From Onchidella celtica (lineage: Eukaryota; Mollusca; Gastropoda; Systellommatophora; Onchidiidae), in the NCBI GenBank assembly GCA_963931925.1, contig OZ007567.1, positions 84,935,677-84,999,676 of the forward strand: DNA of 64,000 bases. The letters are read 5' to 3'. The position numbers and the translations under genes were made by a program. This document shows positions 33,801 through 36,800 of this stretch, in pieces; position 1 is the first letter of the stretch; each line of letters starts with the position of its first letter. Under the pieces are notes generated by a model. That model was not told where the DNA came from. It was given only the letters and a program-made list of their open reading frames with translations, and ran no database searches.

Positions 33801-36800
33801 ATCAAATACAGTGGGCATTGCTTAAAAGAACACGAATGATATTCGAGAAGAAAATATAACTTATCTGCAAAGGGAAAGAACATCGCAAATCAACAGTGAG
33901 ACAAAAAGACTAAGTAGATAGTAAAAGATTAATTAATTAATTAATTTATTTATTTATCAAATATTTCAAATAAAAGGGTGATGCAAAGAAAAATTTAAAA
34001 AATGAATGATATTCAGAAGTAAATAAAATTTATCTACAAAAGGATAAGAAAACGTCGTAAATCGACACTGTGACATTAAAGCTGAGTAGACACTCAGAAA
34101 TACGTAAATAAATAAATTGGCTATCTCAGCCGACCTTTATCTGCAAATGGGAAATAGCATCGTAACTCAATATGCAGACATTAACCCTCTAGCGCCCAGA
34201 TGAAAATTGCCAATCTCAGAACTTCTGAAATAATACGCTGAACTGATTTTAAATAGTCAGATTATTGCAACAGTTAAAATTTCTAATGTGTGGTTGGAAA
34301 AATTATTTGTAAATAAAATAGGAAGCAGAAGTGTATCAAATATAGAGCATTTTGGCTCCAGGTGACCTATTTCAGATATGGTACATTGGGCGCTAGAAGG
34401 TTAAGACGAGGCATATAAGGGGGAAAGTAGGATAATTTTCGCCAGTGCACTGGCCTTGTAAAAGGATGCTGACGCTTATCAGATACAATCATCTGTAGAT
34501 CTTTTGTTTCATGAAACCAGGTAGGGAAACAGGGAATAGTTAAAAAAACAAAAACAAAAACCAACTGGCTTTCTATACAACATGATCTGAATCAATGGAA
34601 ACGTTAAAATGCAAATTGTTTGGACTGAGACTTGGTGAGGTAACTTCTTCTTCAGTTCTCATTGTTTCCCACAGGAGTGTGAACGTTTGGCTGGTATCTA
34701 TTCACTACAGCTATGGGATCTACTTACTGTGGCTATAGGATCTACTTACTGTGGCTATGGGATCTACTTACTGTGGCTATGGGATCTACTTACTACGACT
34801 ACGGGATCTATTTGCCATAGCCTTGCAACCTACATGTTATGGTTATGGGATCTACCAACTACGGCTAGGGGATCTACTTACTATGGCTATGGGATCTACT
34901 TACTATGGCTATGGGATCTACTTACAATGGCTATGGCCACCTGGGGACCTTTGAGGATCCAAAAGAAACCCTGAGTAGGATGTGTATTCCAGCAGCTGAA
35001 AATACAAAGATAATACATTTTGGTAATATTAATATTACCATGTAATGTTATGTCAGTGGCAAATGGTTAATGCCTTGGGTCGCTCCCACACATACTTTCA
35101 TTGTTTTGGGGCTAAAAAAACAAAAAAACGACACTGATAATCACAATGAAAGAGCAATGATAATAACGATAAAAACAATAACAAATGAAGCACAGGGATG
35201 AGAATGAACGAAGTAATGATAACGATAAAGAAATAAAAAAACAACAACACAGAAATTAGTTAATAATTAATCTGGTACGGCGTTTTAATAAAGAAATTAA
35301 TTCATAAATCACAACATTTAAAGTTACACAAATAGTAACAGCATTAAATGGAAAAACTAGTGGCAAAAATGGTAAACGTAAAGAAATAAAAATACCAAAC
35401 AATGTCATTGTCATGATTCAGATGTTATTAAAACTCACGCAGAGAGTGAGTTGTTTTTTTTACCAGGGCCATGAAAAATTGGCTGGTGGCCTTGAACGGT
35501 CCTCGCCAAATTATAGTTGGTGAGTAAATAAATGTAAAGTTAAACTGTTAGATTCACGCTTGTGGGTTTTAATGTTCGTGATTAATAAGTAATGGAGTAG
35601 GGGTGAAACAAGGTGGGGACAGTTGACATTGTTAAGTATGACTAGACAAGTTTTTGCACGTTAACTGGCTGGTAGAATAGTGCAGACGTATTACTACAAT
35701 TAAAATGGTGGGAGGTTTCGACCTATGAGATAGCTGAACTAATTGGGCCAGCGGACTAGCACGCTGGGTAGTTAGATAGTATATAACATCGTGTAACGTT
35801 CAGATTTGGGGAATACAGACGAACAGAAGCATCGTGTCGTGAAGTATCTCCGGTTGACCAGTACCTGAACTGTGTGCTTTGAAGACAAGAAGTCCTTGCT
35901 AACGGACTGACTGAGCTCTAGAAAGAAAGGTCTGAGTGGGCTGACCTTTGAAAGCCCACGCTGCGCTATATTGATGTTCGCGCCTACCAGTAGGCGTGAG
36001 CAATGGTAATATATCTTATTTATTCAAGTATAATAGAGATCGGAGATAGAGAGAGAACTACAGCCTCATAGGAAGACTAAGGAAACCCCAGCTGGCACTC
36101 GACCACGAGTGTCCTGTATCATAGATCTATTGCCATAGTATGATTGGAATAATATAGCACATTGTTGATGAATTGAATAGTGATTGTGCATAAAATATAG
36201 TCTTTTGGCAACTGCTTAAATTACCTACAAGCCGAAGAGTGCTTCTGTAGGCTTTGAACGTACTGGGCTCTCCTAACATTTAAGCCCATATGATTTATGG
36301 AGAGTTTGCCTGGCGACTGGCCAGTGACGACTCAACTGTCACTTTAAATTGATATCTAGTTTCGTATAATATACCTATTTGCTATTGATTGCAGTACCTC
36401 CATAGTTACATGAATATCATTGGTTAAGTTATTAATTAGAGTTTTTTTTGGTTTGAAGATATACCTCTATTGTCTTTTGTTTTGTTATTAATATTTATGT
36501 AAACTATGGCCTGACCGGCCTGACATATATACGCTCTAGTTATTTAATGCTTTTCTTGTGTGGTTGTGTCCGAGTGTGAGTTAGCTGCCTCTCGTGCAGT
36601 CGTAACATCCCCAAGACCCTAACTCTGCTCGTGACAGTCATCAGAGAAAAAAAGCAACATTCAGGCAGCACAGGCAAATTTGTCGTTTTTGTCCTCCTTG
36701 TCTTAGGACATGTATTCTGCCATTTTACGGGAAAAGACCGTACTTGACAATCTAGGTCATAATTATTCCCCTTCCAACATTATTCTAAAGAACGAAAAAT

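Follow-up and report, generated by a model that had tools for sequence, protein, structure and literature searches.

A class B1 receptor gene with TM5 divided between two exons

The window (the whole 64-kb stretch of DNA that we analyzed, positions 84935677-84999676 of contig C1 in a 1.14-Gb genome of 43 contigs) carries on its minus strand a gene for a class B1 (secretin-family) GPCR. Our model of this gene (20865..47820) starts at the TM1 exon, runs to the stop codon and comprises nine exons (47820-47726, 46865-46697, 45965-45809, 43684-43624, 34995-34926, 33556-33465, 32838-32700, 28473-28432, and 21011-20865), whose AG and GT borders are predictions from the sequence. When joined, these exons form an intact open reading frame of 323 amino acids from TM1 to the stop; its seven-helix part fits the Pfam profile 7tm_2 with 239.4 bits, against a cut-off of 20.6, over positions 2-250 of the 250 positions of the profile. 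Among the structures in the PDB, the best matches of each kind are the secretin (E = 7.5e-64), PTH1 (8.8e-62), and PAC1 receptors (4.8e-59), and the placement in class B1 rather than B2 stems from these matches to the seven-helix domain, the part of the protein that we traced. The TM7 exon measures 42 nt, a length that is the same in vertebrate class B1 GPCRs.

Two exons contribute to TM5. The 70-nt exon TM5a (34926..34995), identified through the 7tm_2 profile and through related loci, covers ECL2 and the first part of TM5; the 92-nt exon TM5b (33465..33556) possesses a single donor, GTAAGA. The intron between them is in phase 0. An earlier inspection of this DNA from its letters alone, referred to below as the sequence-only reading, had drawn attention to a repeat at the donor of this intron. 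The repeat does exist, and there is more to the structure than first noted: the intron carries a second array at its acceptor. Elsewhere in the window, a 37-bp repeat of 5.3 copies (45532-45732) is found about 75 nt inside the intron that follows the TM3 exon, and a 47-bp minisatellite of 14.4 copies with 91% matches occupies positions 61212-61889.

The TM5a donor lies within a 22-bp minisatellite

Read on the minus strand, the TM5a exon ends in ...GCCATAGCCATT at 34926, and from 34925 onward, beginning with the donor of this exon, 11 units of a 22-bp tandem array follow each other (34684-34925). That the donor is embedded in a 22-bp tandem repeat had already been recognized by the sequence-only reading, and our TRF analysis of the window bears this out (period 22 bp, 34692-34936, 11.1 copies, 78% matches, score 280); unit length and copy number are those of a minisatellite (a unit of 10-100 bp in at least three copies). 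The first unit, u1 (34904..34925), provides the exon's own donor, ATT|GTAAGT. Decoy donors with an exact GTAAGT are present in u2 and u3 (34860..34903) and again in u7-u10 (34706..34793); the intervening units u4-u6 (34794..34859) are degenerate (GTTGGT, ACATGT, and GCAAAT), as is u11 (34684..34705; GTGAAT), with which the array ends. Hence, seven of the 11 units contain an exact GTAAGT, arranged in two blocks (u1-u3 and u7-u10). The earlier count of seven perfect donors at 22-nt steps consequently stands as a number, although it includes the native donor, so that six are decoys, and the run is broken by u4-u6. Instead of the 13 exon nucleotides previously attributed to the unit, our alignment assigns the last 11 nt of the exon (34926-34936) to its end, 10 of them identical; the unit thus combines an exon end with the donor GTAAGT.

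Since u1 is identical in sequence to u2, and u7 to u8, at least parts of the donor array look young. An assembly artefact or a collapsed repeat is hardly credible as the source of this pattern: the copy number of tandem repeats is prone to mis-assembly, but the units differ mutually, the array is merely 242 bp long, and the assembly consists of 43 contigs. The RNA of the array carries 24 UAG triplets in its 242 nt; as UAG forms the core of the sites bound by hnRNP A1 and by Musashi, these triplets might bias the choice of donor.

When the 1.14-Gb genome was searched with the unit probe GTAAGTAGATCCCATAGC, allowing at most one mismatch in 18 bases, all seven matches fell inside the donor array itself, and we therefore reject the idea that the array represents a dispersed repeat. 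Its restriction to this site at the searched stringency makes it most likely that the array was made locally, out of the exon-intron boundary. A growth from this boundary, as envisaged by the sequence-only reading, is also well supported by the overlap of the unit with the exon end and by the related receptors: of six tested at the same donor, five have no duplicate and one, L058, has a single weak duplicate. Within the GPCR gene, BLAST searches for junction-covering duplicates returned eight matches for the TM5a donor, three for the TM5b acceptor, and none for the other 15 splice sites tested. Among 12 splice sites of the six related loci, one had a duplicate, with a single match; in this test the donor of L055 was placed 3 nt off, within surrounding sequence that is without matches. 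The one duplicate, at the TM5a donor of L058 (C1:1855000-1863950), is weak (81% over 42 nt), and its copy lacks a GTAAGT by eye.

The native splice sites and their counterparts in related receptors

Twenty loci of related receptors were fetched, and the 12 in which a TM5a exon is followed by an intron were compared by eye. All 12 share the codon at which the exon ends, the GT following the eighth codon from a Gly-Pro-like pair, and this is the codon position of u1. In the six loci with both TM5 exons, the sequence behind the acceptor AG reads ATTAAT, ATCAAT, GTTAAT, or GTAAAT, as compared with ATAAAT here. This shared donor codon, together with the similar start behind the acceptor, argues that u1 and the acceptor designated E below are the inherited pair of splice sites, with u1 being the ancestral donor. 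Given the intact reading frame of the GPCR and its matches to 7tm_2 and to the PDB entries, splicing from u1 to E must work. Of the other eight fetched loci, L042, L043, L045, and L046 lack the intron and read through TM5, and L048, L049, L051, and L057 have no clear TM5 exon; L009, L010, L011, and L029 likewise read through TM5. The TM5 intron is consequently not universal in the wider receptor family, and its absence from these eight read-through loci counts against the explanation that we favor below.

The calculated pairing with U1 also counts against it, as the native donor has no edge over the decoys (-7.0 kcal/mol for u1 versus -7.2 kcal/mol for all six perfect decoys). The native donor ATT|GTAAGTAG, at -7.0, pairs more weakly than the two donors that come next in the gene (-11.0 and -9.1). 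Extra U1 sites can play helper roles, and the many U1 sites just downstream of u1 might raise U1 occupancy and strengthen exon definition, or protect the transcript from premature polyadenylation, with u1 remaining the site that is spliced. Such assistance to a weak donor is distinctly improbable in our view, since the corresponding donors of L039, L041, and L055 are equally weak or weaker (-7.0, -5.5, and -7.0) and have no duplicate there.

A second array at the acceptor of this intron

At the 3' end of the intron, about five tandem copies of the acceptor occupy positions 33465-34180 on the minus strand, at steps of 107, 169, 158, and 150 nt. The repeated segment of approximately 150-170 bp comprises upstream intron, a pyrimidine tract, the AG, and the beginning of the TM5b exon. 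Copy A (34100..34180; first exon-like nucleotide 34140) is the most decayed one and is bounded by a MITE-like element; it is followed by copies B (33984..34099; 34033), C (33815..33960; 33864), and D (33657..33810; 33706), the extents of these four copies being approximate, and finally by the real acceptor E, whose first exon nucleotide is 33556. CAG precedes the exon or exon-like sequence in A, C, D, and E, and TAG does so in B. Every copy possesses a pyrimidine-rich tract (12-14 of 17 positions), with the next AG upstream at 27-47 nt; copies A-D are without the second half of the TM5b exon and without its donor. Pairwise identities amount to 65-78% among copies B-E, for which ungapped repeat families concur, and to 51-53% for copy A, which was seen by its motif and by alignment and has no match in the BLAST duplicate test. 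A genome search with the acceptor stretch, in which very common words were skipped and three candidates were scored, recovered the stretch itself and, besides it, three matches that are 31-45 nt long.

The acceptor core TTGCAGATAA ranks among the best conserved parts of copies B-E: nine of its 10 columns are invariant, a level that, counting the core, six of 128 overlapping windows of 10 columns reach. This conservation hints weakly at use or at gene conversion, and to the extent that it could reflect use, it is a further point against our favored explanation.

Between the donor and acceptor arrays, and adjoining acceptor copy A, lies the MITE-like element of 224 bp (34181..34404), with TTAA ends and 18-bp terminal inverted repeats, whose 18-nt arms are 94% complementary. 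It is dispersed, with at least 40 scored genome matches, itself included, out of 1081 first-look candidates; its nearest other copy, on contig C8, is 98% identical, and the rest, among the matches listed, are 81-87% identical. The TTAA ends, the terminal inverted repeats, and the many copies agree with a piggyBac-type MITE, TTAA ends being the feature that links such elements to piggyBac.

With repeats at both ends of the intron, the donor units (TAAGTAGAT) might pair with ATCTACTTA in the acceptor copies and thereby either bring the splice sites together or mask the decoys. An exact 9-nt complement does exist and occurs twice in the intron, but an equally long match was reached by 63 of 1000 shuffled introns and by 13 of 203 control stretches. 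We therefore reject such a cross-intron RNA pairing, which we hold to be extremely unlikely.

Coding outcome of the possible splice-site pairs

We translated every combination of the seven perfect donors with the five acceptors (35 pairs), and the receptor is encoded by u1 joined to E only. Because none of the other 34 pairs encodes the receptor, the joining of u1 to E must be frequent enough for its production. For 33 of the 35 pairs, the last exon junction of the gene model is more than 50 nt downstream of the stop codon; NMD usually requires such a distance, according to a rule best known from mammals. When u1 is joined to acceptors A-D, a stop is reached after 4 to 20 residues. Over the first 14 codons, the differences from E that change the amino acid number 9 of 9 in B, 4 of 5 in C, and 8 of 8 in D, the counts for B and D being rough as a consequence of indels. 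On the grounds of these early stops and of codon differences that mostly change the amino acid, we reject the notion that the acceptor copies serve as alternative exons.

For the donor side, the sequence-only reading had foreseen that each 22-nt step would shift the frame, that an AAG TAG stop would soon appear, and that the use of a decoy would truncate the receptor. The predicted truncation is borne out by translation for all six decoys. A shifted frame is indeed found for u2, whereas three unit steps (66 nt) restore the frame, although a stop comes first. Similarly, the frame ends at AAG TAG from u3 on, after VSRSHSHSK, whereas the frame of u2, the nearest decoy, stays open until the last exon; u2 joined to E reaches its stop 11 nt past the last junction and would yield a frame-shifted protein without TM5b to TM7.

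Competing donors and acceptors might operate as a splicing valve that diverts a set share of the transcripts to NMD or to a receptor ending after TM5, with the copy number of the units tuning this share. This would be in keeping with the U1 pairing of the six decoys, which matches that of the native donor, with the single receptor-encoding pair among 35 and the 33 pairs that fit the 50-nt rule, and with the well-kept acceptor core. Against such a valve speaks the finding that the decoy hexamers show no extra conservation relative to the remainder of the unit (9 mismatches in 66 positions versus 27 in 176; Fisher p = 0.84), a variation on account of which we reject selection on the decoy donors. 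In addition, the donor has been lost in four of the 11 units, the codon differences of B, C, and D from E nearly all change the amino acid, and each copy runs into a stop. A fold that masks the donor array is likewise rejected, as its folding energy corresponds to z = -0.26 and 41 of 100 shuffles fold as well. Lacking extra conservation of the decoy hexamers and an unusual fold of the array, the proposal that copy number tunes receptor output, with which the sequence-only reading had concluded, finds no support. We consider the valve unlikely. Quite doubtful is also its combinatorial form, in which seven donors and five acceptors would provide one pair for the receptor, 33 pairs for NMD, and, through u2 and E, a stable mRNA whose frame-shifted receptor would lack TM5b-TM7, so that the copy number would become a fast-mutating dial of the receptor level.

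Probable origin and tolerance of the two arrays

Within the window, GTAAGT occurs on average 0.046 times per 242-nt stretch, and at least three GTAAGT are found in three of 1054 overlapping stretches of this length, those on the array included. Nevertheless, three GTAAGT with gaps of 8-38 have 5812 matches in the genome, and the backward control is higher still (34552); GTAAGT is therefore not enriched, and the rarity of GTAAGT clusters is rejected as an argument. Among the matches listed, which extend up to 73 Mb on contig 1, we counted by eye about 27 separate arrays bearing GTAAGT. Minisatellites with this hexamer are consequently common in the genome, and an array on a donor is no freak of chance. 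With donor-like words being ordinary in arrays, one would expect some of these arrays to coincide with true donors. Tandem arrays (period of at least 10, at least 2.5 copies, entropy above 1.5) make up 1.9% of 197,870 bases and, within the window, 2.8%; the one of 25 such arrays that contains GTAAGT is the donor array. At this coverage, it is by itself not very improbable that one of the splice sites in a gene of nine exons is overlain by an array.

The simplest account of these data is a tolerated slippage at both ends of the intron, with the native sites still working. We assign a probability of roughly 0.7 to such a local multiplication at both intron ends, in which the native sites are mostly used and the arrays are tolerated. 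Slippage or unequal exchange would have multiplied both ends of one phase-0 intron in place: at the 5' end, a 22-bp segment consisting of 11 exon-end-like nucleotides, the donor, and intron sequence would have given rise to 11 units, six of which carry a perfect decoy donor, and some 150-170 bp of the 3' end would have expanded to about five copies, the last of which alone belongs to a whole exon. Splicing would join u1 and E often enough for the production of the receptor, and use of the decoys would be rare, or would amount to a low leakage that leads mostly to NMD-type transcripts. The arrays would thus be tolerated rather than selected.

Here, the spliceosome has to choose among near-identical donors and similar acceptors of which one pair only works, so that this intron constitutes a natural counterpart of the test constructs in which splice sites have been duplicated. 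It illustrates that an inherited intron can bear many strong decoys while the gene is still intact. If the number of units varies among individuals, this locus would offer a direct test of minisatellite length against receptor output.

Comparison with known systems

Tandem duplication across an intron-exon boundary has been described for the potato RdRp gene as a route of intron gain by which ready-made splice signals are copied (PMC4974935). In contrast to this gain of a new intron, an intron common to related loci has acquired extra sites here; its position is shared by the 12 related loci, and no second intron is indicated. The choice between nearby donors decides between a functional and a truncated protein in intron 4 of DOK7 (PMC5585400); two donors compete there under regulation by SRSF1 and without a repeat, whereas a repeat array is present in our case. 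In the CBS allele 844ins68, the junction of intron 7 and exon 8 is duplicated, and the distal one of two close splice sites (termed donors in the paper) is strongly preferred (PMC2630376); this is one duplication, as opposed to about five decayed copies here. In the titles and abstract starts of the open-access literature that we searched, we found no description of an intron with both ends repeated.

The kind of structure found at the donor is already known from human CBS, at whose repeat alternative splicing occurs. This 31-bp VNTR, c.1444_1467+7(16_21), lies at the exon 13-intron 13 boundary and is present in 16 to 21 copies in people (PMC2630376, PMC1395315). As in the donor array studied here, the minisatellite unit spans the end of an exon and its donor, so that donors recur at each step. 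Judged by its name, the CBS unit combines 24 exon nucleotides with 7 intron nucleotides, whereas the unit at the TM5a exon holds 11 exon-like nucleotides and is otherwise intronic. The two genes are unrelated, and the gene studied here has a repeated acceptor in addition, at the other end of the intron. With these differences, the CBS 31-bp VNTR is the closest precedent for the array at the TM5a donor.
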